From positions 14,448,501-14,512,500 of the forward strand of contig OY987273.1 in the NCBI GenBank assembly GCA_963920665.1: 64,000 nt of DNA. The letters are read 5' to 3'. Origin of the DNA: Straminergon stramineum (Eukaryota; Streptophyta; Bryopsida; Hypnales; Calliergonaceae). Made by a program: the position numbers and the translations under genes. This document shows positions 35,600 to 59,818 of the stretch, in pieces. The notes under the pieces are model-generated. The model worked only from the letters and a program-made list of their open reading frames with translations, did not search any database and was not told the origin of the DNA. Each line of letters starts with the position of its first letter. The stretch's first letter is position 1.

Positions 35600-35955
35600 A
35601 GTATGCTCACGTCGGTATGAAAAGATGCCGAGAAAACATTTTTGTAGCAACATACTCATATTGCATTTATTTGTACGTAGTGACTAAGATGATCATGGGG
35701 AGATCTCCTAATACTTGTAATCATCCAACTAATACAATACACAATCTAGGATTCACCTCATTTGCCCTATTCAAATTTGATAAGGCAACCAACAACCAAC
35801 AACCTCTCTACTTTTTGTAAGAAGTGAACGTGATTTTGTATCAACTATCTTGAATCAATTCAAATACACTACATAACTTGATTCCATACAGATGGAACCC
35901 TCCAAGGATTCTTTCCAAAATCCCACTAATTGACGAGGCAAGTATAGAACTTTAA
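35600..35955 (+). repeat. Subterminal repeat, left copy
   Basis: Matches 59819-60165 in inverted orientation, with most of its 84-residue ORF conserved (MIMGRSPNTCNHPTNTI...). The homology ends at TAACTCCATG, exactly the outer edge of the large inverted-repeat arm on the right side. Confidence 0.75.
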
Positions 35956-36284
35956 CTCCATGCAGGGTTGTTAGTATGTGAGGCTATGAGCAGGAAATTT
36001 TTTTACGAGAAAAAATGGCTGAAGGACCTATGACCGTGGACATGAGAAAGTAAAAAGTGCAAAGAATGTAGAGTTTATTTTGTAAAATTCAAATCACTTA
36101 TCCCTTTATTTGATTGAAGGATTTTCCTGAACAAAATGTATTCCACATAGATGAAATTCTTAGAGTACAAAATAAGAATTAGAAGAACGCATGTCCAAGA
36201 TGTAGCCATAAAACACACAAATCCAATCATAATAGAAAACAATACACATTAGCACGACTCATGAGATATGTCAATTTCATGAGT

Positions 36285-39200
36285 CTAAGTCGTAGTGCAT
36301 TCGGTTGTAGATTCGGAAGACTTGGACGAATCTGAAGACTCTCTACCCTCTGATGCAGACCCATCTATGAACTGTAAGACATTTAGAGTGTATGTGTCTT
36401 TATGGCGTTTTGTTTTGGAGCAACCAAAATCCACAAAGGTTGTTGCCATCTGGTTGGCATAGACTGGAAGCTCGTATGTTTTCTCTGGACTACATAGAGG
36501 ACTCTATTTCTTCATCATTGGGTTTGGTGACATCAATCTTCGATGACTGCAAACAAAAATGTCACCATGTTAGAGTTTTGAAAGGTAGAAAGCATCATGC
36601 ACGAAGAGAATTAAAAAAGTGCCTACTTACTTACTCAATTTTCCCTTCCGAATGAATTTGCGAGGCACCATGGGCATGGCATCCGGATCCTGCGAAATTG
36701 CAACTGTTGGAGGCAGTGGCGTCACTTCCTTAGCAGTAGTGGACTTCCGCATGGGTTTGAGGATGGCTTCGAAGATGTCCTTGTTCTCCTCCAAGGCCAC
36801 AATGTGGCGGCCTCTGCCATGACAAGCGACAATGGATGCACCTTTAGGCACGGAAATTTAAAAATATATTATGAGAGATTGAAATTGTAGTTTAGTTACA
36901 ATTGGGAGGTAGAGTAGTATAATTGAATATTGACTTGTGGATGCAGTGCAGTCAAGAATCAGATCTCCTGGAACGCTGGTAGCTTCAAGGAGGATTTGAA
37001 AGAACCGTGGATCTTTTTCGCGAGCCCCATGCCTAGACTTCCCGTCATCCATAGCCATGTCATGTGGATGGGTGTAGTTCATCACCATGTCATCCCATGC
37101 GATGTCGACACCAGCCTTCACCATCGTGATAGTGCGCTTGAAAGAGAAATTGGATTTCCCTTTCATACCCAAGTCCTTCACCACCAAGGTGATTCCAAAT
37201 TTTTGTGTTTGTACAATCATCCAAAATAGGTGTACAATCATGTACAATGCGATGAAAGTAATGGAAGTGAAATTGCTATTTGGAATTGCAGAAATGGAAT
37301 GTAGTTTACCGTCTTGGTTTTGTCAATGACCGAGGTCAAGTGCATGCGATTCATCCCCATCCACTCCTTCTTCACCATGTCATACATTTTACACAACCCA
37401 GGCCTGCAATATTCGACTTTGCTTTGGCACTCCATGAATGGAAGACTATGATGCAGCCGTGGTCTTGGAGATGATTGGAAGCAAAGATGAACGCCGATTG
37501 TAGAGCTTCATCTCCCACGTCCTTGTTCCATTCTGGCACCTCATGTGGCGGAGAAGACAGCCCAGGCACGAGCAAGTTCTCTAGGTAGTTAAAGAACATG
37601 ACATCCACCCCTAGCCTAGCTTTAGGGACACTATGGAACATGGATGGTTTCCCCGCCAACACCTGCCAAGGAATAGTGCAACCTATAGTGACGATAAATG
37701 AACTCAAAGTACAACCATTTGAATGAGAACTTATGACCGTATTTTCAAATCCCAAGAGACATGCATACCTTGTTCAAGAAGTCCACGACTTCTTTGTACC
37801 ATGTCTTTGTCTTGGACTCCATGTCATCCACGGGGTCGTCAATGGAGATGTTGAGAATTAGAGTCTGAGACGTGTCCAACTCGTCGTCATTGAGAATGAT
37901 TGCCTTTGTCACATGAGTGATGACCTCCTCTGTGAGTTGTGAGAGGGTGGCCTTCCTCTTCACTCCACTTTGCGATCCGACTTGTAGCTCGGAGCCTTGA
38001 TCCATTGTGGAGGATGCTGGAATTTGGCCATCACCCGAGGCCTTCTTCTTCCCTTTGGCCTTGGCCTTCTCTTCTTTCTCCATCTCCTTCTCCTTCTCCT
38101 TCTCCGCCATCTTCCCAAGTCTCTCCGCTTCCTTCTTCTCCTTGGCGGTGAGAAGGACTTGAAAACGGGCCTCTTTTTTTCGGTCATTGGCTTCCCTCCT
38201 TGCAATGGCCTTCCTCTTTTGCCTGTCCGTCATTCCTGCGAACTCGTCCACATTCAAGTCTATGGCCCCTTTGCCATCCAATGATGCTCGCAGTTGCACC
38301 TCAGATGGATGAGTGAATGCCGGTGCATAGTCCAAGTACCATGCTCCTCCACTAAGGTGAGCTGTGGTAAACATGCGTAGTTGGTTTGTTGAGAACATGT
38401 AGTCCCCTGAGCTACGGTCCAACCATGACGCTAGGAAGGGAGGCAAGTCTTTCCTTTCGATGGCACCCTTCGCTTCGAGCTCATACTTGAAATAGCTATG
38501 GAAAGAAGAATCAATCATTCTAGGCAATTAGAGACATGACTACAATAATGTCTACGAGCTTAACACATGTTTGAGTTTCACAACCATCCACATTCCATCA
38601 CATTCAATGTGACAGAAGGGTTTGTTCTCAAGGGTTTTAGCATGTACACATCATAATTTGAAGAAATAAGTTGTTGCCAAACCAATTCCAATCTGATAGG
38701 TCTAAAAACATACCGGTAGAGAACCCTCCTAACCACCAAGTTGGACCCCTCAGAATTCGTAAAGGAATCCCCCTTCTTGAAATAATTTCCTCCTTTCAGG
38801 TACGAATGGAATCCTTGGTCCCAAATCTTCCTCCTCCATCCTTCGATGTACTCTTGCAAGGTTTCCGGTTGGAGCGGGACCTTCATGTCGATCTTGATGT
38901 TGTCTTGTTTGATGACCGCCTCGAAGTACTCCACTGCGGCATCTTCGAGCTACACGAATTGATGATCCCAATAAATAGTTTCAGTCCACCGTGACGAATA
39001 AAGAGACATTACAAATTGACACATGTTATAATTGATTGTCATAACGAAACCGTGGAAATCAACAAATGAAGTTGGTTAAGGCACTTACCCCTACAAACCA
39101 GACACACTTGTTCAAGAAAAGGCCAAGGTGTGTTTGGGAGACTGGCCTGGCTGGGAACTTCCTCGCATCACGAGATGGGATGGAAGAGTTCCACCATTGC

Positions 39201-41371
39201 AAGAACTTCACCTTGTGCTCTGCCGTAGTGTTGCACATGGCCACCATTTGCAATTTTTCCAGTGTCATCTCTAGCACCTCGTTGGAGCTCCAATGCCTCT
39301 CCACCTGCATTACCACAAATGAATTGAGTCATGTTTATACAGGCAGATCCGAACCTAGATACTTTATTGGCATGATTTCATGAACATGAGGACTCACCTC
39401 TTCAAGGAAGCCCGCCCCGTGAGTGGGATTGGCCACTGTGAGGAACTTGATCATTTTCACGTATAGCTTCATGTTTTTTTCCTTGGCCCCTACCCTCATG
39501 GCATGAGCTACTCCTTCAGCACTCTTTTCATCAGTCGGTGTTGTCTCGTGGTATCTTCGAAGCGCCGCATCTGCTACCTGTGCAATCTCTTGCTGTGGAG
39601 TCCCAAGAGTATATTGAGAGGAAATTGGATGGGCAAGAAGCACAAGAACACCAAAGAAGATTCCAATTGAGTACTTCACATATATAGAGAATGTGTATCT
39701 CACCTTGAAGACGAATGAGGTGAAGACCTCAGCCAGCATGGAGTACCATGTCTTCCTTGATGGCATTGCCACACATTTTTTCTTCTCTGATGGCCTGTGC
39801 ATGTCATTGAACCTTTCCATTGGTAGCAAGCCGTACTTTTGCACCCGGTACAGAGTATGTACTAGGTTCGTCTTCACATGGGAGTCCTCTATGGATCTGC
39901 ATAGTGGTCAAAAGTTCATGCTTTGAGTACATCATTTTGCAAGTGTACCAAAACATGAGATTCAGGTTTGAAACTCAGAATGAAATGATAGTGGGATTAG
40001 TGATCTCACTCGTTGATGTCATGCATGACCTGCATGACAATCTCAATTTTATCTTTGGTGTCCAAAATAATGCTGTCCACCGCAAAGTGCCAACTGGAAT
40101 TGGTGGAATACATTCTGGAGATGACATTCATCTAGGCCAAGCGTCAATGGTTTCCGTCGCACACAAAGAACTTCAAGTTCTTGAGGAATTTCAGTGTGGG
40201 TTGTGAGTCCACATACTCCTCAAATGTAGCATTCTTTTCCTTCCAGAGAGGGTCCCATTCATCCATCTCTGGTATTGTGAATTGTGACGTCTTGCCCGCC
40301 TCATTCGTAGTGGAAACGTAGAAGACTGCTGCCCCATCACGGTATCCACATGCAAACTCTTGCTCAAGAAATTGCACGTCACATGAGAGAGTCGGCCACA
40401 CCATTGGCATAGCGACAAGCCAACAAAGAAGAATTAGAAATCGGAACATGTGTTCCGACTTCATCCTCAACACATTGATGGTGGAGACGGAGTCTACTTT
40501 CTGCACCCTCCGTAGGTCATCCTCCAACAAGTCTTTCTCCTCTTCGTCTAGCATATCCTCCTCCATTGGGTGTCCTTCTTCCTCTACTCCGATTTTACGT
40601 TGGGTAGTGTCATCGATCCTTGGTGTCTCCACAATTCTATCATCTTGAGTTACATTCAGAGGCGACACATCCATCTGCCAAGGCAACCACGAAAGAGGAT
40701 GACCAAATAGGCATGGATAGGAATAAATGCACATGAGATATACGAAAGCCAAACTCCACGGCAATGGACCCAATGCATCACTTGTACGACCAATTGAAAC
40801 AACACTTGTAATAAAATTTCGAAAGATGTTCAAAATATGGTTTCCTCTAAGGTCACACCTAGCATACACCATAATTTGTAATTATAAATGACATCAAGTC
40901 CGGTCAACCCTCAAGAATCTCAACATCACTCTCTGAATCCAAGCTCAAAAGAATGATGACCTCTCCATGCCTACCCACACTATTGGTACAATCACATTCC
41001 TCAAACAAGGGACTAACGATGGACATGGACGTTTGTGGCTCTGAGCTATATTCGGTATCAAAACTCTCAGAGGAAAACTCCGGCTGCATGCGTTTGCGAG
41101 TGTAACCTGTAATGAGGTGACCCGGCCAATTGGTATTCCGACTAAGCTTCGAGTCTTGAGAAGCCCTAGGTGGAAGAGAAGCACCATTCATATTATTTTG
41201 AGCCCTTACCAAGTCCTCCTCCTCGCCCCCTTCGTCTTCAGAGTCACTTGATACATCGATGTCTTCATCCGAAGGAGTTTTTGGCTCGGATTGCTCTCCA
41301 ACGTCTTCCTCTGTGCAAGGCGTCACTAACTCCATCAGGCCTGATGCTAATCCGCTAGGTCCTTCGAAAAC
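36285..41371 (-). pseudogene. ParB-like plus N4/N6 DNA-methyltransferase-like gene, copy B (spliced, decayed)
   Basis: Exons read from high to low: 41371-~40908 (acidic), 40674-40010, 39896-39704, 39592-39398, 39304-39089, 38949-38714, 38495-37769, 37662-37310, ~37220-36935, 36841-~36631, 36546-36285. Most introns are about 105-220 bp, GT/AG, and restore the frame. Exon 2 carries FFVCDGNH-RLA-MNVI, a ParB-type DGNHR motif. The 727-nt exon is Lys/Glu-rich coiled coil. The last exons resemble a beta-class methyltransferase: GVDVMFF (strand before the catalytic loop), GCIIVFHS, then VPGDLILDCTASTSASIVAC-GRGRHIVALEE as motif I. A catalytic DPPY-like motif is missing and motif I glycines are serines. 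Defects include TGA at 40146 and TAG at 40134 within the ParB motif, a frameshift near 37405-37415, and a doubtful acceptor near 37220. Confidence 0.6.
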
Positions 41372-41417
41372 CTGAAATCAAGAAGATGTAAAATGAGAGA
41401 ACCTACCCAGAAGTCGG

Positions 41418-42215
41418 ATTCGACTGAAGCTTTGGGCGTATCTACTCCACCCCCTGAAAGTGGGACCTCAAACTTATTGGGATTGAATTTTCAACAACAG
41501 GGAGAGAAACGAATCGAGAATTCAAAGGCAGGCAACTAGCTCGCGCGGCCAGGGGTTGGACCTCTTCTTACAGAGGCAAGAGTCCCGCGCGTCGAGGGGC
41601 TGGACTTCTTCTTACAAAGGTGAGAGTCTCGCAATCTTTAGAAACGGAATCGGGACATAGGGTGAGCCCACAACGAGGGCACCCGTGGCCAGGGGCTGGA
41701 CCTCATCCCACACGGCATTCTTTTGAAACCAAATCATGACACTAGCAAAGCCCACAGCGAGGGTACCGCGAGGCCATCACCTCCACCGTGGCCCTGCTCA
41801 CCGCAAGCCCACAGCAACAAATCCAAATCCATAGGGACCCATTTGTGGGGGGTGGAGCTTGCACCTGCCAAGGTCAAGTCAAATTCGACTGAAGCTTTGG
41901 GCATGTCTACTCCACCCCCCAAAAGTGGGACCTCAAACTTATTGGGATTGAATTTTCAACAACAAGGAGAGATAAGAATCGAGAATTCAAAGGCAAGCGA
42001 CTAGCTCGCGCGGTGAGGGGCTGGACTTCTTCTCACAGAGGTGACAGTCCCGCATTCTTTAGAAACGGAATCGGGACATAGGGTGAGCCCACAGCGAGGG
42101 CACCCGTGGCCAGGGGCTGGACCTCATTCCACATGGCATTTTTTTAAAACCGAATCATGACATTGGCAAAGCCCACAGCAAGGGCACCGCGAGGCCATCA
42201 CCTCCACCGCGGCCC
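41418..42215. repeat. Tandem duplication, period about 465 bp, G/C-rich
   Basis: ATTCGACTGAAGCTTTGGGC starts at 41418 (one-base variant) and again at 41883, followed by about 340 bp of closely similar sequence in each unit (GTGGGACCTCAAACTTATTG, GGGACATAGGGTGAGCCCA, CACCCGTGGCCAGGGGCTGG). Inside each unit the phrase GAGGGGCTGGACTTCTTCT also recurs. It lies between the divergent genes. Confidence 0.8.
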
Positions 42216-43400
42216 CTCTCAGCGCTCATCGCAAGCCCGCATTAGCGAACCCAAATCCACGGGGTCTCGTTTTTTGCTTTGAATTCAGAATTCTACAGCG
42301 AAGGTTTCAAATTCAATTTCGTGCTTAGGGAATGGGCATGAATTCGAGCCTTTGATTGGCCGCCGGGCTTGCGTGTCCATATTGTTCGTGTCGCTTCCAC
42401 GTCCTTCACGTCATCTTTTGCGTGGCTTCGTATTGCTCGCTTCCCAAGCACGCTCTCCTCCCTCTGCACTCGTGTCATGGCGGCGCACCATGAGAATTTG
42501 GCAACAACTCACACAGTCCTCCAGATTTGGAATTCGGAATTTTGAGAGGGGGAGGGCAGCCGCGCCCAAGAGGTGGTGCTCAGCGATGTGGAGGGGATGG
42601 AGAGCATCGAGCGGGAAGAGGACGAGGTGGCAGGACCCCGAAATTAGCAATAGGATGGTTGGGCGGCGGCCCAAGCCATGGCCTACATCAGCGTGCCTAC
42701 CCCAGCGAGGGGATACAGTGCAAGTGGAGGGGAAGGCGGGGAGGGTCGGCCGATCCTCTCTCCTTTTTTTTAATTTCCATCTCTCTCCACCACATCCCTC
42801 ACTAGATTTACCACGGTCATGAACTTCTCAAAAAGTCGACCTCACCGACAATGTGATTGAGGAAATGTCGCCATGCACACGGTGGTCGTAACTACGCTGT
42901 TACCCACGGGGCTTTACCTAGGCTTCGCCGTGCTTGGACTAGAAAAAGGACGACATTTTTAATTTGCGCAACCCATGCATGTTAAAGGTCTATGATGTTT
43001 CTATCTTCGTAAATTCTACAAAGTAATCCTACCTGTTGATCTTTAGTCCTTAATTCCACGACCCTTATTCCTATATTTTTTATATGCCAAATTTCTCAGA
43101 CGAAGAGCATGATTCATAACCATAAAAACGGCCCGCTACTTCTGTATAGTGAGAGTCTACATTTCTTCCCAATAGCCCTCCTCTCGTGACGGAGACTAAT
43201 CACTTGATTCTCTCAAGGGATCCACGGTTCACCCCAGATTGTGTTTTATGGGTAATTGAGTACCCCTACGAGATCTCGGGTTTTCCTAATTGTTCAATTT
43301 TTCGAACACATTGGACACATTGATTTATGGAATCATATACCTCCCTTGCTCAAGAGAAAACGGAGAATGTCAATTGGGTCTAGAATAATGAAATAGCAAA
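42216..43400. promoter_or_regulatory. G/C-rich region between divergent element genes
   Basis: The G/C-rich core (about 42330-42760) contrasts with AT-rich surroundings. Long ORFs on both strands (for example 42352-42822) lack any domain and look compositional. Its position between a minus-strand gene (ending its 5' side near 41.4 or 43.8 kb) and a plus-strand gene (from 44.3 kb) makes a shared promoter/leader region plausible, but no specific site was identified. Confidence 0.3.
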
Positions 43401-43402
43401 AA

Positions 43403-43760
43403 TGGAATTAGTACTCATAGTGGCTTCGGAGTTGTCTTCTTCTTGCTTCCAGTTGACACTTGATTCCTCTAGCATAGGCTGACTTCCAACAATGTTTTTT
43501 GGTGCAGGGCCATCCTCTCCACTACTTCTTCCACCAACAAAGCGAAGGGACTTCCTCGGCTCTCCAAGTGTAGACTAAGAAGTCCTAGACACTACCTTCT
43601 TCTTGTTCATCCTGGACTTCTTCAGAGCCTTGGAGGATGAGAAATAAAAACTTCGACACCTCTTTCTACTCCTCACGTCAATCAACGCAGGCTCCACTCT
43701 CTGGGTGTTTACAAGCATGGGGTGAATGAAGTTGACATAAGGCCTCCCTCTCCTCTACAC
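43403..43760 (-). CDS. Possible 5' exon of the copy-B ParB/methyltransferase-like gene
   Basis: On the minus strand this reads GRPYVNFIHPML, then DVRSRKRCRS, then a basic KKSRMNKKK cluster that could be a nuclear localisation signal, one in-frame stop, and RKSLRFVGGRSSGEDG. It ends near a donor-like GTACT. The next inferred exon begins after a good acceptor (TTGATTTCAG before 41371) without its own obvious start, so an upstream exon is expected. Direct evidence that these belong together is lacking. Confidence 0.35.
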
Positions 43761-44339
43761 AAGGTACGTGAAACAAACAAACAAAAACTGGAGTAAGCAT
43801 GATGTCACAATAGACTTATCAAATAGTCCAAGGTCTTCTACAGTTTTCCCTAGGCATGGGACATTAGGATGTGAATTCCATTAAATAATTTCTTCCCCGT
43901 TGCCATCGAGGACATTAACTCCACTTCATGGTATACCTTTGAATGCGCTGGGAAAGGGCAATTAAGTGAAACTAGAGGTTTTAAGAACGCACACCAAAAT
44001 TAACTTTGCCCAACTTCCAAAGTCAAGGAGCGGCAGCTCTAGCATGTTTTGAGAAGACTGTCGAAATTCAATGCTCAGGCCATTTCAATGCTTCCACACT
44101 CCCCAACACGTAACAAATGAAACTTGAGATGGCGGTGCACAAATTACAATTTCCTATGGTGGTTGATTCTCTTGCTCTATTAAGGAGAAAATTAACACAC
44201 TTACTGCAATTTACTAATTGCTCACCTAAATTTAATTTTCTTGAAAATAGAATATACATAAGGCCACAAAAATTAGGTTGCCTTCACTGTTTGCAAAGTT
44301 GCGGTCCCTTGAGAATTCCAACCACTTCCTAATCCTGCT
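43761..44339. other. No recognised gene
   Basis: AT-rich. Short overlapping ORFs only (44068-44259 minus, 44117-44332 plus), no motif. Confidence 0.5.
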
Positions 44340-46500
44340 TTGTGAGGATGGCTTGTGTTCGAGTGCATGGTTAAGATGTTCCACTGGTGTTTCCTATAGA
44401 CGAGGGAGAATCTGCCAAAGTCATGAGTCACCTCCTACACGTTCGCTTTCGATTTGTAGAGTCCTCCATCTACATTGAAGAGGAAAAGTTGTCCTAGTCA
44501 AGTGAATTGGTGCAATCCATTTCGGTTGTCAAGAGTCTAGATGGAGATGGCCATTGCTGGTATCTTGCTCCCGAGAACTATAGGGCTTATGGTCTTCTGC
44601 TCTCCATGCTTGGGGTTTCAACGGAAATTTGGAGTCAACAGTCGGATAACTCCACAGTCAACATGCCGTATGTTGCCCGCAAGGTATCACCCAGTCCACC
44701 TCGTATAGTCTTCCCAGTGCTACCCAACAATAAAATTCTACAGTCAGTCAAGGTAGAGAAACTAGAATCCATCATAGAATTGTCGAGTGAATTGGAAGGG
44801 GAGTCACCTAATGTGATGCTTGAAAAGAAACAACGCCCAGTCCCTTTTGATTCGAGGGAAGAGGCTTCTATACACTCAGAACCAAACACCCCCTCCAATA
44901 GTCCAACCCCATCTCTATTGTCACATCCTCCAGTGCCCCCATTTGTAACTCACCAAGTCAGTATAATGGAGTGCTTGAAGAGACTAGCGATTGTGCGCCA
45001 TTCTCGGAATGAACTGTCCAACATGGATGTTGACGCCGTGAAACACCATCGTGTGCAATACTTGCCCACACATTTCAATGGTGACGTCATCTTCGAATTG
45101 CCTCCATGTTGATCTGCGTCCTCTTCCTCGGCGGCCAAGAACCTCGAGGGAATGGACAAGCGGTACGACAAACACCCGTGGTGTAAGCTGATGACCACGA
45201 ACATTCACAACTCCGACAACCTCAAGTTCCGTAAGTCATACTGCGCTGGACACCTTGCTTGTCAAAATCCTGATTGTGATTATGTAAAAAGGGCTTCCAA
45301 AATGAATGAAACGGAGTGGACCAGTTTCACAATCTATCCTTTCACTAAAGGAGGGAGTCCTCCCAATGATTGTACTCTAGTATGCAAAGTTTGCAAGAGC
45401 ACACCCTTGTGCTTGAATACATGTGATGCTAGAATATACTACTATATTGCGATAATGAAAAAATGACTAGGGCCGCTATACACTTCAGAGATCATACGCA
45501 CCTTGTAGTGAAGGGTGTATACAGAGACTCCGCAAAGAAAATCTCGGGACTCATTGCAGAGCAGGTGGCCAAAACGCCCATGGCCACCAACTCAGCAATT
45601 GCGCTCTCTGCCAGCAAAGAGTTCCTCACGAACTATTTGTTTCACAATGGAGAGGGGGAGAAAGAGATGTTGAAGGGAGAGGAACTAGAGGAGGTCATGG
45701 ATCAATTCCAATATCTTAGCAATCCGAACATTGGGAATGTCATATCATCGTTTCGCTCCAACACCAAGGGAGGGGTCATCGACAACATCATGACAATGAA
45801 GAAAGAGTCAAAGTTCGAGTTCATACATGATAGTGTCTCCCCAAGATAGGGAAGGGAGAAGGTGTACCTCTTCAAAATGCTCACAGAAGGACCCGGAAGT
45901 GGAGTGGACCTCGTCAAACGAATGCAACCAGGAGGGGATTTACAAAATGCATGGATAATGTTTGACCACATCAGATGCGTCAATGAGTGGAGTACTATGG
46001 CATGCCATGTGTACAATGCAGAGTACAAAAAAGTCATGATCGTGGCCACCTACGATATGCAATCAGAGAACACAGAGATCCAAGTTCAGTTCTGGAGATC
46101 TCTAAACATAGTCATGGCAAGACATAGAGTGGAACACACTAACTTCAAAGGATTCATGGCAGATAACGCATTGGCCAATTGGAATGCGGCACGGATTGTC
46201 TATGGAAGTGGGTCACCTAATGAGAAAATGGAGAATTGCGAGAAGACGTGTTTGCTACATTGGAGTAGTTCACTCCACAAGCATACCCAGAAGCACATCA
46301 AAGAAGCATTCCAACAACAACACATAACCCTCTGCAAACAATACAAAGAATCCGAGACTGTCGAAGAAGCATAGATGCGGTACCTCACAATTTGATCCTG
46401 GTGGTTGTCATCAGGTGCTGCAAGTGAAGAAGATCTTCATCATTTGGACCATTGGCTACCCTTCTGGCATTTTCGATACCTATAGTGGGGAGGCTTCATG
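44340..46500 (+). pseudogene. MULE-like transposase, N-terminal and catalytic part (decayed)
   Basis: The frame from about 44340 to 45466 is open apart from TAG near 44495 and TGA at 45110-45112. It contains a Pro/Ser-rich linker and then FRKSYCAGHLACQNPDCDY, a Cys-rich GCM1/WRKY-type DNA-binding motif common at MULE N-termini. A frameshift at 45463-45466 leads to 45463-45846 (MTRAAIHFRDHTH...), a TAG at 45847, and 45862-46374 with YKKVMIVATYDMQSENTE, FKGFMADNALANWNAARIV and CLLHWSSSLHKH, the region holding the likely catalytic acidic residues. The match to a transposase family of non-seed plants is from memory. It continues to about 46500 with further stops (SWWLSSGAASEEDLHH). At least four lesions make it non-functional. 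Confidence 0.65.
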
Positions 46501-47040
46501 ACTATAGTAAGTGACCTCCTAAGTTGATTTTGGAGTATCCATCCTCCTGTATTCAAAGCAGTTGTTGAAAAATAGAGGTGTACCCTCCAAACTTAGAGGC
46601 ATGTACATGGCGACTTTGATTGAAAATATTCTAGTAGGAATTACTTTAAACTTTTACGAAATTATTGATGAGTATATGAGGGGGGCCCCAAATGAGCGGT
46701 TCAAGGATAGGGACCCTAGACCTTAGTCGAATCCGACTGAAGGTTCTGGTCTCCCAAATGTTACTCTTTTTTTAAGGACTCCCACTCATGAGGGAGCTCT
46801 TGGACCCCCTCTTGAGAATCTCATGTCAGTCTTTTTCCTCCTTAGTAGACATCTCGTGTAATGCTCATTCGTAGAGAAAAAATCTCTTTTGTATTTTTAC
46901 ATTCACGAACATCTTGCTCTCTAAGCAAATGAGGTTCATACATTTGCAATGAGTCCAGGACGATCACATGGGCTATTAAACCTCGAATATGAAATTGGAT
47001 GTCCTCACTCATGTGTTATGGATGTATGGATTTGTAGAAA
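46501..47040 (+). other. Gap between transposase halves
   Basis: Stop-rich sequence without coding character: a former intron or a small insertion. No clear GT/AG pair chosen. Confidence 0.4.
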
Positions 47041-48426
47041 TTGAATTTGGAAGAGATGATTGACTTACCTTTTTGCAATTTGTCCGAAACGGTTCACAAC
47101 AAATGGCTTCAAATGTTGGGAAAGCGAGTAAACAACCTCTTCGACGCAACTTGCGATGACAGCATTCGTGCATGGATGCAAATGACCAACTACCGGGCAT
47201 ACCTCAGAGGACATGCATCTGGATCGGGGCCGTCCAGAGGGGAGCTCAAACTCAGAGCTGTGAGACGAAGTGGATGTCCCAAGAAAATCGCAGAAGTGTT
47301 GAACACGTTGCCTGGAGTTGAGGGGGTGGGAACAAGAATACCACACTTAGAAGGAGAAGAAATCTTTGGGAGCACGAAGAAGAAGTTGGACATACCCATT
47401 GGTGATGCCGGAGATTCACATAGACCCGACAAAGTGAACTTCTCTCAACCGCGTGTGAGAACTAGGTCCATAATGGCTTCTCTTCAATCTTTGGAGGGCC
47501 CAAGTGAACAACCTCAAATCCAGAATCCTAAACATGTCACTACAGCATTTGAAAGTGACTATGACACCTCCAAGTGGCACATTGCTAGGATCAGCCACAA
47601 GTCCAATGCAAAATGCCATGCTCAACAATGGACCACCAACATCAGGTGTGCCTCAAAAATCGCAAGGGGAAGGAAGGGAACACCAGCTCCAACCTATCGG
47701 GGCAAAAAAGAAGATTATAGGAGCAAACAGGAGGTGGTGGTCGACTTTTGGTTCTATTGGGATGACATTGAACGATGTGTGAAGGGTACGAAAAGGAAGT
47801 GGGTCATTGACTGGCCTGAGGTACGAGAGGTGTGGCCCGTTCTCAATGGGACCAACCTCAATAGGGAGGAGACTCTACTCTTGCAGGATGTAGGCTTCTA
47901 CCTTCAGGAAAGGCTGACATTGTCCCCACGGCGACTCTTCACCATGTCGAAAGTTTTCCAAACTGTCTCATACGACCAACCAACGCCCAAGAACCCGGAT
48001 GCATATCCAACGGTTAGGAACAATTGAACCATTCGAAGGATAGCCAATGCACCAACTATGGAACAATGCAACAAGTGGGAAAGTGCAGCAAATGTTAAAG
48101 GACAAATAGTAGGAGTCACCTTGCTCCCCTTTCTAGGCCTTGGTGCAATAGTGGCGCTTGAGAAAGGGATAGACCCTAACAAAAACATCTATCGAATTAC
48201 AGTGGGTATGTTCCCCACGTGCACATGCCCAAACTTTGTGAATATGGTTGTTTCAGCTATTGGAGGTCGACAACAATACGTGAATTGCAAACACCTATAC
48301 TATTTGTATAGGTACTTCTGCAAGATGGACATCCATGAAGAGAAGTTCATGCATGCACCTAGTTATAGCTTCAATGAACTGAAGGTGCTCCTAGTTCGAG
48401 CAGGAATCATTACAGTTCCAAAATAG
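47041..48426 (+). pseudogene. MULE-like transposase C-terminal part with SWIM zinc finger
   Basis: One frame across 1386 bp with a single TGA at 48025-48027; the 339-codon offset to the next ATG (48058) is in frame. N-terminal part: PFCNLSETVHNKWLQ and RAWMQMTNYRAYLRG, consistent with the helical region after a transposase core. The middle is basic and Pro-rich with SDYDTSKWHIARI and RLFTMSKVFQT. The C-terminus has TCTCPNF and VNCKHLYYLY about 25 residues apart, a SWIM C-x-C...C-x-H zinc finger, then HAPSYSFNELKVLL. This is the longest ORF here. The copy at 7340-7678 matches only its C-terminal 100 residues. Confidence 0.7.
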
Positions 48427-48639
48427 ACATGTCTACATTTATCCATGTACTTCAATTTCATAGTATTCATTTGCATATATTGCGATTGAAATCATTTGCA
48501 GTATACAGAGGGAAAATGTTAATTCATTTCTTATTTATAGAAGCATGTTTCATAAGTGAAGTGCGTTGTTGCCAATTCATAGAAATGACTATATTTCCAA
48601 GTCTTTTTCCTAGTTTCAAAACGTCTTCATAGTCTTTTT

Positions 48640-48900
48640 ACTTCCAATGTGTTCCCATTCATTTTCCCATTTTCTTAATTTATGTTTTTATTTTATTTCT
48701 CTGTCCCCAGTTTTCTTTTCCCAATTTTTTTTCCTTTCCCCATTTTTTACCTTTTTCCATTTCTCCCTTCTTTCCCCATTTTTTTCCTTTTCCCCTTTTT
48801 TTTTCTTTCTCCATTTTTTCCCTTTCCTCATTCCTTGGATTCCTCTTTTTTTTTTCCTTTTCACATTTCGTTTATCTTCTCCATTCTCTACAATTTGGGA
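48640..48900 (+). repeat. Pyrimidine-rich tract after the SWIM ORF, copy B
   Basis: Nearly pure C/T with TTTTCC units. Same relative position and sequence style as 7900-8345. Confidence 0.75.
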
Positions 48901-49537
48901 GAGGATGTCAACATTTTGGCAGTTCTTACAATTATGAAGAGAAATGAATTTTATAATTGTAAATTATGTAAACCACCAAAACTAACGATTCCAATCAAAT
49001 GTCGACCCTAAATCCACCATGGCTTCTACTCATCATTTCACCCAAACCTTGAGGTTTTCTACTCACCCTACATATATGCACTTATACAAACTCACATAAA
49101 AAATCCCAATTGTCCTAGAATATTCAGACACCAAATCCTATGTATTCAAATTAGATAGTGAAAACAACACAACTAAGTTGTGTCCAAATGGCATCTATCT
49201 ATAATATTGAAACCGTCTAGCATATTTCCCATTGTAATCATTGAACTAAGTGCTACAACTTTCCAATAAAATTTGACACTCCCTTCCCATAGTAATAGGC
49301 AATTTTAGAAGAATAAAAAATAACTCATTCCAGAGTCCATGGTTTTAGGGGACACGGACATAGGTCACAATATTCACTTAAAATAGGAAAATTTTGTCTA
49401 TTTTGAGAAAAAAAATGATCAAAAAATATTTGGGGGCAAAAAATTGCCCCAAAAAAGTTTTGGAGGCTCTAGGCTCACATACTCCACGCTCAGAGCTCAC
49501 AGGCTCACGGCTCTAAGCTCACACGCTAGCGTCGTTG
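48901..49537. other. Non-coding element DNA
   Basis: The first about 170 bp match the 3' flank of the other SWIM copy (ATTTTGGCA, CCACCATGGCTT). Near 49470-49530 there is a short array of GCTCACA/GGCTCAC units. No gene. Confidence 0.5.
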
Positions 49538-49794
49538 TAACTCCATGGTAGTATTGGAATTATCATATTACTAATATAGTAGCAAGAACTTCTTGTTCTT
49601 CACATCTCTTTCCAATTTGCATCGCTATGAGCTACCATTCTAGTTACACTCATTGGAAGTTGCTTGAGCCCTTAAGGGCTATTGCACCTACATCCTCCTC
49701 AACAAGTGCTCCATCTTGAAAATGATCTTTGGACTTCCAACAATTTATTCAGCCCAATGAAACAAATAGACCTAGAGAGTCCTTCCAATGCACT

Positions 49795-50046
49795 TCAAGT
49801 CCAAACCAAGCTTCTTGACGAATATATGGACATATAACCATCAGGAGATCTCCCGATGTTCTCACAACACCATCGGCTCTCTATAACATTGTCCAATTCA
49901 GCACATCCACCAATGTTCTCAAATCCCTCTAGTAGAGGTTGATAGGGATATTTTGAACTTCCAAAATAATTGAATGAGGTCATAACAAAATGAATACCCA
50001 CGGCTCCAATGGAATGGCCACACCAAGACTTTGGCCCTAAAGACAA
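49795..50046 (-). CDS. Hypothetical ORF in the left arm (mirror of 59310-59561)
   Basis: 83 residues, MSLGPKSWCGHSIG at the start, identical to its mirror. I recognise no domain. It overlaps a palindromic motif copy read as RSPDGY. It may be a fragment of an element gene that also includes the ORF at 50251-50469. Confidence 0.25.
   Translation of the reverse strand: MSLGPKSWCGHSIGAVGIHFVMTSFNYFGSSKYPYQPLLEGFENIGGCAELDNVIESRWCCENIGRSPDGYMSIYSSRSLVWT
49839..49858. repeat. Palindromic motif copy (mirror 59498-59517)
   Basis: CATCAGGAGATCTCCCGATG, one change from the perfect 20-bp palindrome. Confidence 0.8.
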
Positions 50047-50250
50047 ACCTCCACAATAGACTCTAGTCCAACTTTACCAAATCTCTGAACAAACAACTTA
50101 ACTAAATTACCATTGTTGAATGGTTCAGATCGAGCACTAGAATCTTATCATTCACCCACCAGAGGTGTTCCACCTAGGTACGGGATAATTGCATCATTGA
50201 AGGATTCACATAATGAATCCATAATGTGTGTTCTACTTTCTACTAAATTT

Positions 50251-50469
50251 CTATTGAGGGCTATCTAGATGATTGGTAAACTTGTGAATAACATTGAGGC
50301 AACATGAAGTTAGGCGAGCCATAGCTTGAACACCCTTGCCATGGCCTAGAAATATTATGACATCTCTTGATTTTTTAAACTTATTAATTGCTTCAAAGCA
50401 ACATTGAGTCATGTTGAAATTCATACTTAAATGTGTTACCTTTGTGAGTTCTATCGGGAGATCTCTCAA
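50251..50469 (-). CDS. Small ORF with weak Alba-like pattern (mirror of 58887-59105)
   Basis: 72 residues, MRDLPIELTKVTHL at the start, then FEAINKFKKSRDVIIFLGHGKG and a helix with AMARLTSCCLNVIHKF. The order of helix, strand VIIFLGHGKG and helix loosely resembles Alba DNA/RNA-binding domains, but the match is weak and unverified. The start ATG lies in the palindromic motif, which is read as RDLP. Identical in both arms. It could equally be an unrelated or non-coding ORF. Confidence 0.25.
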   Translation of the reverse strand: MRDLPIELTKVTHLSMNFNMTQCCFEAINKFKKSRDVIIFLGHGKGVQAMARLTSCCLNVIHKFTNHLDSPQ

Positions 50470-50470
50470 T
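50453..50470. repeat. Palindromic motif copy (mirror 58886-58903)
   Basis: ATCGGGAGATCTCTCAAT. Confidence 0.75.
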
Positions 50471-50685
50471 GATGGAAGAAGTTACACAACCAATATTGAG
50501 AAGGGAACATAAAGATGAGCATCCTCGTTTTCAAACAAATAGGTTGCATATCCTAACTATATCCATAAATCTCCAAATGTGTATTAAGCAAGCTAACAAT
50601 GCACATGCATCATTGAATAAGGTGCACCCTATTACTAAAACAAGTTTCCAATCATAGCTCAAATGAAAGATTTCTAAATACAGCT

Positions 50686-50703
50686 ATCGGGAGATCTCCC
50701 GAT
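50686..50703. repeat. Palindromic motif, perfect 18-bp copy (mirror 58653-58670)
   Basis: ATCGGGAGATCTCCCGAT. A second copy, CATCAGGAGACCTCCCGATG, follows about 35 bp later; both are followed by AACTAT-GT-(A/G)GATCTT. Confidence 0.85.
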
Positions 50704-50796
50704 GCAACTATAGTAGGATCTTCAAATACAACCATCAGGAGACCTCCCGATGAAACTATGGTAAGATCTTTAGATACACTACAAGGGAAACTATGC

Positions 50797-50925
50797 CCTA
50801 TTTGACAAAAAATTGACAAAAGTTTGTCAATTGTTTTGTCAATGGGAATCTATAGATATGGCCAATAATTTGACAAAATTTTGTCAACTATTTTGTCACT
50901 TTACTAGAATTTTTGTCAACTTTTA
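50797..50925. repeat. Cluster of TTGACAAA / TTTGTCAA units
   Basis: About ten copies of TTGACAAA or its inverse within 130 bp. Further copies lie near 52150-52190, and all are mirrored in the right arm (58431-58559). Confidence 0.7.
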
Positions 50926-51139
50926 TTCCCTAATATCTTCTTTTGTTAGTTGCCACATTGTCATACTGACATGATGGCCTAATCAATGGTTACAAGTGTC
51001 CCCATTTTTTGCAAAAAAATATTAAAATTAAAATTTTCTTTAAATTTAAACCTTCATTTATTGATAAAAAAAAATGCATATACAACACAATCAATTGTTG
51101 TTGCTTCACAACACTTCATAAACCACTTATATTTTGTGG

Positions 51140-52010
51140 ATTTGAGAAGAGAAGAGAAGCTTTCTATATACACATGAGGCAGTAGGAGGTAGAACGACCC
51201 ATGTGGGATATGTCATTTAGAAGTTGCAAGAGTTCAACCGCTCATAGTTAAGTTTGAAATACAAATTGTATGAGAAATAAAATTTCAAACCTCATTCAGG
51301 TAGAGTAGAATAACTTTTCCCAAAAAACTTTGAATTAAAAAAAGTTGGGAAATCAATTTAAGTTTCATGTCCAAAAATCCATTTGATGTTTTGATCCTTC
51401 AATCAAAAGCTATGGACAAATTTTAGAAAGGCGATGAATGGGAATTTTTTTTGACCTTTTCAAACATCCTCTCTGAAATTTGTCCATAACTTTTGATTGG
51501 AGGATCAAAATATCAAAAGAATTTTTGGACATGAAACTTGAATTGATTTTCCAACTTTTTTTAGTTCAAAGTTTTTTGCAAAACGTTATTTTACTATGCC
51601 TAGATGAGGTCTGAAATTCTACTTTTAATACAATTTCTATTTATGCTACATTTAACTACTTTTGGACTTTTGAAAGTCCAAAATTTAAATGGTCATTGGG
51701 AGAAAAAAAAATAGTAATCAAGGGATAATCCAAAACATCCAGAGATCTATGCAAAACATCTAGAGATCAATACAAAACATCTGGAGATCAATATAAACAT
51801 CTAGAGATCCATATCAACATCCGAAGATCTCTTGATGATATTATTTGGACATCTCCTAATGTTTAGTCCAGAATTCATTGAATAGTCCAAAAGTAGTTAA
51901 ATGTGGCATATTTCAAACTTAACTATGAGTGGTTGAGCTCATGCAACTTCTAAATGACATATCCCACATGGGTTGTTCTACCTCCTACCACCCCATATAT
52001 ATAGAGAGAA
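51140..52010. repeat. Foldback element within the left arm (mirror 57346-58216)
   Basis: TAGGAGGTAGAACGACCCAT near 51185 reappears inverted near 51990, and the inverted similarity runs inwards through the TCATAGTTAAGTTTGAAA and TCATGTCCAAAAAT blocks. The inner loop is near 51430-51480. The right half is interrupted by the 267-bp MITE at 51643-51909. Confidence 0.8.
51643..51909. mobile_element. 267-bp MITE of the large-element family (mirror 57447-57713)
   Basis: Ends are ATGCTACATTTAACTACTTT and, inverted, ATGCCACATTTAACTACTTT, the same as the ends of the 25-kb element. Flanked by ATTT direct repeats (51639-51642 and 51910-51913). The other half of the surrounding foldback supplies an empty site with one ATTT. 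Internally it holds about five 20-bp units of the form CAAAACATCTAGAGATCAAT, which resemble half-sites of the dispersed palindrome. Confidence 0.85.
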
Positions 52011-52281
52011 CTTTACTTCTACTCATAACTCAAGCTAAGATATATTTGGCAATTGATCAAAAGGTAAATGTATAAAAAACCTAGTGGATCCTTTAGGCTT
52101 TTGGCAAATGATCTATCTTAACAATCACTAGTGAGTCAAATTTAACAACAGCTTGAAAAAAAATTGACAAGTTCTCACAAATTGACAAAATGATGTAGCA
52201 ATAATATGGCTATTGTCATTTTAGACAATTCTCAATCAAAAACTTATCATGTTGGACTGCATTTCTTTATAGTGATACAAC

Positions 52282-52301
52282 CATCGGGAGATCTCCCGAT
52301 G
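52282..52301. repeat. Palindromic motif, perfect 20-bp copy (mirror 57055-57074)
   Basis: CATCGGGAGATCTCCCGATG, flanked by AACTATG as at 50725-50750. Confidence 0.9.
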
Positions 52302-52349
52302 AAACTATGCCAAGATCTTGAGATACATTCCATTGTACAATTGCATGAT

Positions 52350-52557
52350 GACGTAGTTTGGATCAATACACATATTTTACTAATAAATGTTATCGTATCT
52401 AGACATATTTTGGATCAATATATGTATTCTACTAACAAATGTTATCGTATTTAGACATAGTTTGGATCAATACATGTATTCTACTAACAAATGTTATCAT
52501 ATCTAGACGTAGTTTGGATCAATGCCCGTATTTTATCAACAAATGCTATTGTATCCA
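52350..52557 (+). repeat. Four tandem 52-bp units (mirror 56799-57006)
   Basis: Each unit starts GACATAGTTTGGATCAATA and ends TTATCGTATCTA with small differences. Unit starts: 52350, 52402, 52454, 52506. They generate repetitive ORFs (82 and 74 residues) that are unlikely to be genes. Confidence 0.9.
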
Positions 52558-53035
52558 GACATGGTCTTTACCATTTGACTTTATGGATTTTATACAATAT
52601 TCACTAGCATCCAAAGTTGAACCGTCCTCCCTTGACATGGAGAACATTGTTGTCATCCACTGATGTTAGGGCAACAGGAATCCAATGCATGTCATTTACA
52701 ATACAAAATCCGTTGCACTAGAACTATGTTGCACTCTCAATCTATGCATGCTTATTGTGTGACGATATGTAGCAATGTTAGGACAACTAATGAAACCTGA
52801 AAATTATCAACCGCAAGTGAAGAAGTTGGAAGTGAAGATATCATACCTTGCAACATATGATTGACGTTGAACTTTGTGTGCTTCAACCTAGAAGTGTTGG
52901 CAATTCTAGAAAATACAAACTCCAAGCTCCTAAGCCTCCACAATTTCTTTATGTGTGCAAAAGAGCAAGCTCTAGGTCGTTCACAGAGTATGACCCAAGT
53001 GGATTGGGTTTCAAGAGTTGTGACTTCCCACCAAA

Positions 53036-56000
53036 GAAAATGAAAAAAATGAAAAGAATTTAGAGCTTTAAAAGTTCAGAAAAGGACTCTAAACCTAATC
53101 CTAGCAGAGTAATTGTATTGGTACCTTTGAGTGTGGTTTGACCTATATTTTTAAGTTTAGAAACATTCATATTGTTTGGATTTTATATTACAATGAATCT
53201 TGTTTTAGGGTTCAGGATTCACAGTATTATGATTTAGAGCTTGAATGATATTAAGTTCTAGCTATACGATATTAGGCTTGAGGGTTTAGAAAATGAGGGT
53301 AATAAGGGTAATTAAGGATTTGAAAGTATTGAATTAATGATATTAGAGTCTAGGAATCACGAAATTAGGATAATAAAGTTTAGGATATTAGAGTGTAGAA
53401 TTAATGGTATTAGGGTCCAGGGTTCATGTTTTTAGGATGTAGGGTTTGGGGAATTAGGATAATACAATGTAGGGCATTAATTTTTAGGATTAATGGTATT
53501 AGGATGTAGGGTTCATGGTAGTAGGGTGTAGAATTCACTATATTAGGGTCTAGGGTTCAAAAAGTTTATGTGTTCAAATATCCACACATTAGCTTTGTCA
53601 AATAATCACAAAAAGAATATGGTTCATTGGGAAAGTTCTAATTGTATATGGATTGCAAAACAAATTGCATCATTCTTATTTCTAACGAATATGAATTAAT
53701 TTTAAAATTCAATGCACTTTGATTGGTGGGTTAGTGTCTGAGTATATAATATTGTCAATAATTAGGTAATTATAGGTCATATAATCTTTTCTTGATTTCT
53801 TGTATGTTGCACGCCTCCAAAATTGTATGTAATGAATATTTACACAATGAATTTTAAATGCAAGACTAAATATGCTTTGAAATCATGGGCATCCAATATA
53901 TGATATTCAAGCACACAAACCGTACATGGATTGAACCACATTCCAAGCTCCAATTTTGATTACTTTGTTTGTATATATATAGAGTCCTTTCGACATTTCT
54001 TTTACTTTGGTTTTTGTTTCTTTCATTGATGTTGTCTTTTTTTCAATATATATATATGGAATATTAATATAACTGTGCATTTATTTAGTAAATTCCCTGT
54101 AAGCATGTTATTCATCAAGTTTAAGGTTGAATTGAATTCTAAATTACAATATAACGATTTGAAAGCTAAATATTATGCAAAATTTTAATACTTATCATTG
54201 TTATCATGTGTATAATCATCTACCTAGATTTTTAGTCATTTAACCTTGCACACAAAATAGTATAATTTTTTATTGAATTATTTCATTGTTCACAAATTGT
54301 TGATTTATTCTAATAATAAACTTAAATCCTAAATTGTAAAAGTAGTCTATAGTTCATTAGACATTGATAATAAATACATTTTTGTTTTGGCATGATCAAC
54401 ATTTGGATTGTTATTTTTATTGTAAAGATTGTTCAAATACCTTTACTTGTAAGTATTATAGAAAATTTAAAAGTATTCAAATTGTAGTAAAAGAGTCTTT
54501 TCCTATTCTATAATATGATTATGGAATCATAAAATTTATTTGGATTCAATCACATAGATAATTAATAAATATTAGACTCTTTTTCTATCATTGCAAAAAT
54601 TATTGGGGTGATATCTAATATTCAATTGGAACTTTAATTAAGAAATTATGATTTTTTTATGTAGAAAATCATTTTAGTTTGAACTTGACTGGAGAGACTA
54701 GTCAAAAAGGACTAAATTACCTCTAATTAGTGGATTAGCCAATTAGGTTTGATAAATGATGATAGTTAAAAAGAAATTAAAGTACAATTTTTACATTGTT
54801 TGATCCCTTTAGGGGTACTGTTGGGTGTGATTTGATCCACATAATCACTTTATCTACCAAGTTTGGAAAATTCATGAGTATGAATTCAATAAGTACTTGT
54901 ATATGCAAAAATAACTACTAACTAAAAAACATGTAGGCAATATGTAACAAACCCTAAACCCTAAATTGAACTAGAGAAGGATCATTTTGTGAACTTCTTT
55001 ACAAATTATGAAAAAAATATAGTGTCAATACTAGGGCTCTTGCATGAAATCAATGCTATTGCTCCTCAAAGTTGTACGTGACCTAGCTCATTGACAATAC
55101 ATACTTTTAGTTTATTGAAACTATGGTTTTCAAAATATATATACCATGCACTAAATAGTCCATGAGTGTTCACCTACACTTTAATTAGCAACAAAATGGT
55201 ATTCATTTGGAAATTTCTAAATTAAGTACTACAATTATTTAAGTAAGTCAAATAGCCTTGTTTGTGTTTGTAACCAATAATGATGAATTTTAAAGTTCAA
55301 TGAAATTTTGTGGTAAGGGCCCAAGCATGTAATATCAATTAAATGATAAATAAATTTCATTTAATTAATTCTAAACTTTATGCAAAATCAGTATGGCAAT
55401 AGTGAAAATTTGAACTCTCTAAAGGGCAATTTGACTTTGTCAAGCTATGCAAAGACAACAAATGTGAAAAAAAAATTCAAATGAAATAAATAAAAAATCT
55501 TTGTACCATGTGATCATACAAGGAGTTACATTAGATTACAATTAAATGTTTGTTTCCAAAAAAAATTGGAAAAAATGTGTTTTCTTATTTTCTTGAATTT
55601 GCATTGCTAGCCATATTGAGATGTGTCTCTGAAGAGTCTAGATTTTTTTGCAATGGGAACTTTTATATTTTGAATGTTTTAGATGGTAGTCAAAATTTGT
55701 CATTTTTCTTCATTTCTTTTTCTTTTTCTTGACTTCCAAGTGTGGATTTTAATCCATTCTTTAAAATTTAAATTGTATATGTAATATATACAACCATTAC
55801 TGGCATATACAATATTAGTTATAGAATATAGAATTGTCCAAAATGAGATGAATGAATTCTATATACTATAAAGTTGTAGGATATGGACTATGATAACTTG
55901 CTTAATGCCTCATTGCCTAAGGGGATGAAATAAGTTCTATTTCAATAAATTTTGAGATACTCTAGGTAATGAGGGATTAAAATATATGAAGGAAAATCTC

Positions 56001-56320
56001 TTCATTTTGAAAAAAAATCATAGATCTTTTGATGTTTTGTAAAGACCTCAAAGGGTTTTTTATAGGCACTCTATATTCTTTTGAGACACAATTCTATTTC
56101 TAGATACTAGATTGGGATTTGGCGAAGAAGCTAACTTGCTTCTCACATTCCAAAATTGCGCTTTATTTTTCATTCTCTTTTGCTAGTCTTCTTTTAGTGT
56201 GAGGTTCTTACCAAAGTCAAACTACCTTCTACAAAGTCCAAATTTTTCTATTGCTATAATTTTGCATAAAATCTATAATTAATCAAATGATATTCACATG
56301 ATGTAGGCCATTTTCCCATT
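53036..56320. other. Spacer between the inverted-repeat arms
   Basis: 3285 bp, very AT-rich, single-copy in the window. No gene recognised; the 60-residue ORF at 55550-55732 has no motif. Near 53180-53560 is a degenerate array of TTAGGGT/TAGGATTAA-like phrases. Confidence 0.6.
53180..53560 (+). repeat. Degenerate TAGGGT-type array
   Basis: Loose repetition of GGTATTAGGGTCTAGGGTTCA and relatives. It resembles short interstitial telomere-like decay but contains no run of perfect TTTAGGG. Confidence 0.45.
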
Positions 56321-57446
56321 TTTGGTGGGAAGTCACAACTCTTGAAACCCAATCCACTTGGGTCATACTCTGTGAACGACCTAGAGCTTGCTCTTTTGCA
56401 CACATAAAGAAATTGTGGAGGCTTAGGAGCTTGGAGTTTGTATTTTCTAGAATTGCCAACACTTCTAGGTTGAAGCACACAAAGTTCAACGTCAATCATA
56501 TGTTGCAAGGTATGATATCTTCACTTCCAACTTCTTCACTTGCGGTTGATAATTTTCAGGTTTCATTAGTTGTCCTAACATTGCTACATATCGTCACACA
56601 ATAAGCATGCATAGATTGAGAGTGCAACATAGTTCTAGTGCAACGGATTTTGTATTGTAAATGACATGCATTGGATTCCTGTTGCCCTAACATCAGTGGA
56701 TGACAACAATGTTCTCCATGTCAAGGGAGGACGGTTCAACTTTGGATGCTAGTGAATATTGTATAAAATCCATAAAGTCAAATGGTAAAGACCATGTCTG
56801 GATACAATAGCATTTGTTGATAAAATACGGGCATTGATCCAAACTACGTCTAGATATGATAACATTTGTTAGTAGAATACATGTATTGATCCAAACTATG
56901 TCTAAATACGATAACATTTGTTAGTAGAATACATATATTGATCCAAAATATGTCTAGATACGATAACATTTATTAGTAAAATATGTGTATTGATCCAAAC
57001 TACGTCATCATGCAATTGTACAATGGAATGTATCTCAAGATCTTGGCATAGTTTCATCGGGAGATCTCCCGATGGTTGTATCACTATAAAGAAATGCAGT
57101 CCAACATGATAAGTTTTTGATTGAGAATTGTCTAAAATGACAATAGCCATATTATTGCTACATCATTTTGTCAATTTGTGAGAACTTGTCAATTTTTTTT
57201 CAAGCTGTTGTTAAATTTGACTCACTAGTGATTGTTAAGATAGATCATTTGCCAAAAGCCTAAAGGATCCACTAGGTTTTTTATACATTTACCTTTTGAT
57301 CAATTGCCAAATATATCTTAGCTTGAGTTATGAGTAGAAGTAAAGTTCTCTCTATATATATGGGGTGGTAGGAGGTAGAACAACCCATGTGGGATATGTC
57401 ATTTAGAAGTTGCATGAGCTCAACCACTCATAGTTAAGTTTGAAAT

Positions 57447-57713
57447 ATGCCACATTTAACTACTTTTGGACTATTCAATGAATTCTGGACTAAACATTAG
57501 GAGATGTCCAAATAATATCATCAAGAGATCTTCGGATGTTGATATGGATCTCTAGATGTTTATATTGATCTCCAGATGTTTTGTATTGATCTCTAGATGT
57601 TTTGCATAGATCTCTGGATGTTTTGGATTATCCCTTGATTACTATTTTTTTTTCTCCCAATGACCATTTAAATTTTGGACTTTCAAAAGTCCAAAAGTAG
57701 TTAAATGTAGCAT
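57447..57713. mobile_element. 267-bp MITE, right-arm copy
   Basis: Mirror of 51643-51909, same ends and flanks (AAAT on this strand). Confidence 0.85.
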
Positions 57714-58886: not shown

Positions 58887-59105
58887 TTGAGAGATCTCCC
58901 GATAGAACTCACAAAGGTAACACATTTAAGTATGAATTTCAACATGACTCAATGTTGCTTTGAAGCAATTAATAAGTTTAAAAAATCAAGAGATGTCATA
59001 ATATTTCTAGGCCATGGCAAGGGTGTTCAAGCTATGGCTCGCCTAACTTCATGTTGCCTCAATGTTATTCACAAGTTTACCAATCATCTAGATAGCCCTC
59101 AATAG
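58887..59105 (+). CDS. Small ORF with weak Alba-like pattern, right-arm copy
   Basis: Identical in sequence to the left-arm ORF at 50251-50469; see there for the weak domain reading. In this arm it reads on the plus strand and is followed by the ORF at 59310-59561. Confidence 0.25.
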   Translation: MRDLPIELTKVTHLSMNFNMTQCCFEAINKFKKSRDVIIFLGHGKGVQAMARLTSCCLNVIHKFTNHLDSPQ

Positions 59106-59309
59106 AAATTTAGTAGAAAGTAGAACACACATTATGGATTCATTATGTGAATCCTTCAATGATGCAATTATCCCGTACCTAGGTGGAACACCTCTGGTGG
59201 GTGAATGATAAGATTCTAGTGCTCGATCTGAACCATTCAACAATGGTAATTTAGTTAAGTTGTTTGTTCAGAGATTTGGTAAAGTTGGACTAGAGTCTAT
59301 TGTGGAGGT

Positions 59310-59561: not shown

Positions 59562-59818
59562 AGTGCATTGGAAGGACTCTCTAGGTCTATTTGTTTCATT
59601 GGGCTGAATAAATTGTTGGAAGTCCAAAGATCATTTTCAAGATGGAGCACTTGTTGAGGAGGATGTAGGTGCGATAGCCCTTAAGGGCTCAAGCAACTTC
59701 CAATGAGTGTAACTAGAATGGTAGCTCATAGCGATGCAAATTGGAAAGAGATGTGAAGAACAAGAAGTTCTTGCTACTATATTAGTAATATGATAATTCC
59801 AATACTACCATGGAGTTA

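Follow-up and report, generated by a model that had tools for sequence, protein, structure and literature searches.

A putative Mutator-like transposon of the moss Straminergon stramineum carries a spliced gene for a methyltransferase-like protein

1. The Element and Its Two Genes

The stretch of DNA considered here, referred to as the window, comprises 64,000 nucleotides of Straminergon stramineum (GenBank assembly GCA_963920665.1, contig OY987273.1, positions 14,448,501 to 14,512,500). It contains a DNA transposon with two divergently transcribed genes (Table 1): a spliced gene, whose product ends in a methyltransferase-like domain, and a probable transposase gene. An earlier note on this DNA had described the former as a ParB-like domain followed by a beta-class methyltransferase, and the features it named were found on the minus strand where it had placed them.

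A 401-bp probe from the spliced gene was searched against the assembly (326 Mb, 59 contigs), which gave 40 scored matches among 338 first-look candidates. One of these is the window's own, and the remaining 39 have 89-95% identity. The window was aligned with the best 20 of these 39, and the gene copies under comparison are spread over eight contigs. In 20 out of 20 fetched copies the homology begins at window 35959-35990 and the flanks are unrelated, while a matching right terminus was present in five of six fetched right-end stretches, the end of L010 lying outside its stretch. The 10-bp target site duplication was found in five of seven insertions. It is exact in the window and in L009, agrees at nine of ten positions in L016 and L028, and agrees at eight of ten in L014 once the boundary is moved by 3 bp; in L017, the right end was found and no target duplication. 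Copy L009 measures about 13.6 kb by its coordinates, the same as the window element. The common left end and the duplications bear out the earlier view that the gene is located in a transposon, here a multi-copy DNA transposon.

The second gene shows a codon-position signal over two intervals when the window is compared with four copies (0.031/0.030/0.071 for 45850-46371; 0.027/0.034/0.056 for 47038-48426). It contains motifs that resemble, by eye, the D/E/C..H type. Its C-terminus matches the SWIM model with 12.2 bits (cut-off 19.6), and a related sister element in the window does so with 14.6 bits at 7340-7675. The target site duplication falls within the 8-11 bp range given for Mutator-like elements in the part of the survey available (PMC6446971). 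The element can be called Mutator-like with moderate confidence on these sequence features.

2. Structure of the Spliced Gene and Selection on Its Product

The modelled gene has ten exons between 40674 and 36285, separated by nine introns of 84-218 bases, and the product predicted from the spliced model has about 1110 residues. Depending on the intron, the donor GT is present in 18-21 of the 21 aligned sequences and the acceptor AG in 16-21. When the last donor was moved by four bases, GT was found in all 21, and with this correction 12 of the 21 sequences keep one reading frame across all ten exons and end at a common stop. The spliced gene is real. Every one of the 21 sequences has internal stops, at least three each, and the window copy is dead: its DGNH string reads into a stop, exon 8/9 (37662-37310) shifts the frame, and the acceptor at 37209-37210 has been lost. 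The earlier description of about ten frame-restoring GT/AG introns therefore stands for the family, in which nine introns mostly keep GT/AG and the frame is restored, but not for the window copy, which is out of frame.

The comparison of copies revealed the pattern expected of a protein under selection. Mean site variability at codon positions 1, 2 and 3 was 0.037/0.032/0.063, with 0.055 in the introns; the third position was about 1.85-fold more variable overall, and every one of the ten exons had its highest variability there. The difference between the third and the first plus second positions has p = 2e-15 when sites are treated as independent, and transversion-type differences are distributed as 154/101/278. 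Variants found in at least three sequences occur in the ratio 102:97:205 by codon position, as opposed to 230:199:284 for single-copy variants. Hence, the protein was under selection during the multiplication of the element, each copy decaying afterwards. Since the gene was selected while it spread with the element, "domestication", the term of the earlier note, does not fit.

Two further observations concern the gene. A basic, lysine/arginine-rich open stretch lies upstream on the minus strand at 43420-43760 and is a possible first exon; it is present in three fetched copies too, with a weak codon signal. Copy L015 has about 2 kb of extra sequence within exon 5, probably a later insertion.

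Table 1. Positions of the transposon, its borders, genes and exons in the window.
Feature	Position	Strand	Remarks
DNA transposon carrying the gene, 13.6 kb	35963-49537		shared left end and right terminus
10-bp target site duplication, left	35953-35962		identical to 49538-49547
10-bp target site duplication, right	49538-49547		identical to 35953-35962
Repetitive interval separating the divergent genes	41411-42225		repeat families D5 and D6, 89-90% alike
Possible 5' exon, acidic open stretch	40904-41335	-	most copies are open here; codon signal weak
Exon 2, FFVCDGNH string	40010-40674	-	stops break this copy; codon-position signal 0.046/0.037/0.082
Exon 3	39704-39896	-	codon-position signal across copies
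Exon 4	39398-39592	-	codon-position signal across copies
Exon 5	39089-39304	-	codon-position signal across copies
Exon 6	38714-38949	-	codon-position signal across copies
Exon 7, lysine/glutamate-rich stretch inside	37769-38495	-	codon-position signal across copies
Exon 8/9, methyltransferase-like domain start and motif IV counterpart	37310-37662	-	frame change in window copy
Exon 10, methyltransferase-like domain: motif X region and motif I start (GDLILDCTAST)	36935-37208	-
Exon 11, motif I remainder plus motif II region (ASIVAC...GRHIVALEEN)	36631-36841	-
Exon 12, C-terminal tail up to common stop	36285-36546	-
Probable Mutator-like transposase gene	44498-48426	+	broken here; SWIM-like C-terminus 48028-48426

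3. The Methyltransferase-Like Domain and Its Altered Motifs

Profile comparisons identify the last 240 residues of the protein as an amino-methyltransferase domain of the permuted (beta) class. Five of six scanned copies match the Pfam family N6_N4_Mtase (best E value 5.2e-5), and all six match PHROG_67 (best E value 8.5e-8) and PHROG_498, the latter over residues 19-240 of the first scanned member. A phmmer search of the PDB with copy L028 retrieved DpnA at an E value of 0.0045 and CcrM at 0.12; the pieces for motif IV and motifs I-II aligned in order. A phage methyltransferase profile was built from 12 proteins, namely two from Wolbachia phage and ten tblastn matches of one of them. Using hhalign, the domain aligned to this profile over 188 columns with a probability of 95.7%, and copy L028 scored 11.9 bits against the corresponding hidden Markov model (HMM), which none of 500 shuffles reached (best shuffle 6.1). 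The motif order is permuted, with motif IV ahead of X-I-II, and the domain is colinear with the phage enzymes. The Pfam, PHROG, hhalign and shuffle tests thus agree with the beta-class N6/N4 methyltransferase-like C-terminus proposed earlier. Scans of viral and of prokaryote genome contigs based on the alignment of this domain brought up no relative, a weak negative, as two short peptide patterns were used for each.

The catalytic motif IV of the domain is altered. None of the 20 readable sequences has [DNS]PP[YFW] at motif IV; the 21 sequences have DCPE (6), DYPE (3), DCLE (3), DYLE (2), DCSE (2), NYLE (2), DFPE (1) and DCPK (1), and one is unreadable. For comparison, three aligned standalone phage enzymes have DPPY, DPPY and DLPY. 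The place of the SAM-binding motif I is taken by LDCTAST followed by GAS (DCTASTG) as against the DPFxGSG type, and motif X is poorly kept. In the bdelloid methyltransferase N4CMT, a change from SPPY to APPA abolishes activity, as described in the part of the report available (PMC8885841). Without a first proline and an aromatic residue in motif IV, and with an altered motif I, the domain seems to have lost methyl transfer and probably handles DNA without methylating it.

The alternative would be that the protein, despite its unusual motif IV, still methylates DNA at N6-adenine or N4-cytosine and in this way marks the DNA of the element to regulate transposition or to block silencing. Such an enzyme would account for the continuing selection on the methyltransferase exons, where shared variants occur as 28:27:54 by codon position, for the retention among readable sequences of the motif IV aspartate in 18 of 20 and of the position-three proline in 11 of 20, and for the colinearity with the phage enzymes. 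However, the complete lack of the standard motif IV, together with the state of motifs I and X, makes this alternative unlikely.

4. The N-Terminal Region and the Question of a Phage Origin

The ParB-like domain of the earlier note was not supported by any of the sequence tests. The KFF... string is readable in 15 of 21 sequences; six show an exact DGNHR after KFFVC, and the rest are substituted or have a stop. Pfam and PHROGs searches of the proposed ParB region gave unrelated, chance-level matches only, hhalign against phage ParB domains gave a probability of 0.5%, and 251 of 500 shuffles scored as high as the region or higher against a phage ParB HMM. Structure prediction, which the note had suggested, was too poor to help: two AlphaFold runs without an alignment had low confidence, with predicted local distance difference test (pLDDT) values of 45 and 43. 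A scan of viral contigs based on the alignment of the region found no relative, which is a weak negative obtained with two short peptide patterns. Matches of the N-terminus in the PDB (a dynein chain at 0.003; ribosomal L28 at 0.04 and 0.29) were judged spurious and set aside. A ParB domain is therefore not to be stated as found, the short DGNHR string alone speaking for it, and a distant ParB relation may still exist, as the copy alignment has almost no depth.

These results bear on a further explanation, the one put forward in the earlier note, in which the element took over an intact ParB-methyltransferase fusion from a phage or bacterium and still has both domains. Such an order does occur in phage: a protein of Wolbachia phage WO has ParB_N at residues 9-90 and the methyltransferase at 191-380. 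The profile of such proteins is also the one matched by the methyltransferase-like domain here, and the DGNHR string lies N-terminal of that domain. However, besides the negative ParB searches, the distance between the two regions exceeds 500 residues in the moss protein, as against about 100 in phage WO, and phage methyltransferases without a ParB part match as well (best tblastn E value 7e-5). Capture of the whole fusion is accordingly improbable; a phage or bacterial origin as such is plausible. A more elaborate scenario is more doubtful still: a phage-type ParB-methyltransferase would have entered a eukaryotic transposon and become a non-catalytic, sequence-specific DNA reader for self-recognition, which shields copies from host methylation or directs transposition.

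5. A Possible Role in the Element

The explanation that we favour, and to which we give about an even chance, is that the gene is an accessory gene of a high-copy Mutator-like transposon, and that its protein is built on a decayed, non-catalytic methyltransferase domain, binds DNA and serves the element. The domain would have ceased to transfer methyl groups and would bind DNA instead. The service to the element may consist of helping integration, as for MudrB, or of keeping the non-coding DNA of the element free of host silencing, as for VANC. We infer this DNA-binding accessory role by analogy, because of the MudrB and VANC counterparts, the repeated interval 41411-42225 and the APPA result for N4CMT.

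Several points count against this explanation. The first scanned member misses the curated Pfam cut-off (21.5 of 26.7 bits), the motif IV piece alone has only 2.4 bits against DpnA in phmmer, and a six-copy profile performed less well against the PDB than the single sequence (best 0.57). When all 695 open stretches in the window were scanned with the phage methyltransferase HMM, exon 11 ranked first, yet with an E value of 0.56. A non-standard motif IV can still be active, and a DNA-binding N-terminus is conjectural. The Pfam MULE models match nothing in the transposase gene, so that the Mutator-like label comes from the 10-bp duplication, the sub-threshold SWIM match and the motif reading.

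A captured piece of a host gene, taken up in the manner of a Pack-MULE and without a role in transposition, is a very unlikely reading, since, although host sequences are often acquired by Mutator-like elements (PMC6446971, in the part available), a multi-exon frame under codon-level selection with copies on eight contigs is unlike a passive fragment.

6. Neighbouring Elements in the Window

Positions 1-8610 belong to a second element, which is related to the first and lies on the plus strand; the 3' end of its transposase-like gene is 74-77% identical to 48097-49167 at the DNA level. It contains a split NIF phosphatase-like gene at 4862-5704, below the Pfam cut-off; a further NIF phosphatase-like fragment lies at 15481-16154 (E values 0.004 and 0.05). 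In its gene at 840-2724, FMIINCQHSITTSKEL resembles ParB and VLGLYLGAKFILASKV resembles motif I by eye, with no statistical support. A methyltransferase domain at 2128-2724, colinear by eye, was considered and rejected, as 19 of 500 shuffles reached its score against the domain described in Section 3, hhalign was unsupportive and PHROGs returned nothing. Pyrimidine-rich tandem repeats of about 17-18 bases are found downstream of both transposase-like genes, at 8050-8333 and 48676-48891. An NCBIfam scan of seven open reading frames had no informative result.

An inverted repeat at 35615-35962/59809-60156 was considered as the termini of the gene-bearing transposon and rejected, as the 10-bp duplication and the 20 left ends set the border. 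The repeat belongs to a palindromic element interrupted by the transposon, which inserted in one arm. The palindrome arms, 49538-53035 and 56321-59818, are 3,498-base inverted repeats that are 99.97% identical and enclose a 3.3-kb loop. The palindrome at 49538-59818 is either part of an element with these 348-bp outer repeats or a feature of the assembly.

7. Comparison with Known Systems

The phage ParB-methyltransferase proteins are alike in that their methyltransferase profile aligns with the domain described here. They have about 360-460 residues, some being cut at the match ends, whereas the moss gene is interrupted by introns and much longer. By Pfam, ParB_N is just above the cut-off in one of the two Wolbachia phage proteins and below it in the other. 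Motif IV of the phage WO protein is DPPY, which the element protein lacks.

Eukaryotic retrotransposons that carry cytosine methyltransferases exist. Among the titles and abstract openings listed, which included few subscription journals, no methyltransferase or ParB gene in Mutator elements or plant transposons was found. A survey of Mutator elements lists SWIM, PMD, SET, ovarian-tumour and other additional domains, and the word "methyltransferase" is absent from its main text (PMC6446971). N4CMT of bdelloid rotifers is likewise a bacterial-type amino-methyltransferase in a eukaryote; as far as the available part of the report goes, it is an active host gene product with SPPY and a chromodomain fusion that helps to silence transposons (PMC8885841). 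In contrast, the domain here is borne by a transposon and has no SPPY-type motif.

MudrB is likewise the second gene of a Mutator element, the autonomous MuDR of maize, and is apparently required for integration; the part of the survey available does not describe a relation of MudrB to methyltransferases (PMC6446971). VANC, of the VANDAL Mutator-like elements of Arabidopsis, is likewise an accessory protein encoded beside the transposase, and VANC21 binds motifs that recur in the non-coding DNA of the element and brings about hypomethylation, according to the part of the report available (PMC5735166). VANC proteins contain DUF1985 and DUF287, and "methyltransferase" does not occur in the main text of that report (PMC5735166), whereas the element protein ends in a methyltransferase-like domain. 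Pfam gave three matches with E values up to 1 for the protein spliced from the window copy, and DUF1985 was not one of them. Among plant Mutator accessory proteins, VANC is one with which a transposon is known to counter DNA methylation by its host. The moss protein is a concrete candidate for tests of DNA binding and anti-silencing; if the favoured explanation is true, a non-catalytic accessory protein derived from a methyltransferase would link prokaryotic DNA-modification enzymes to the self-recognition of eukaryotic transposons.

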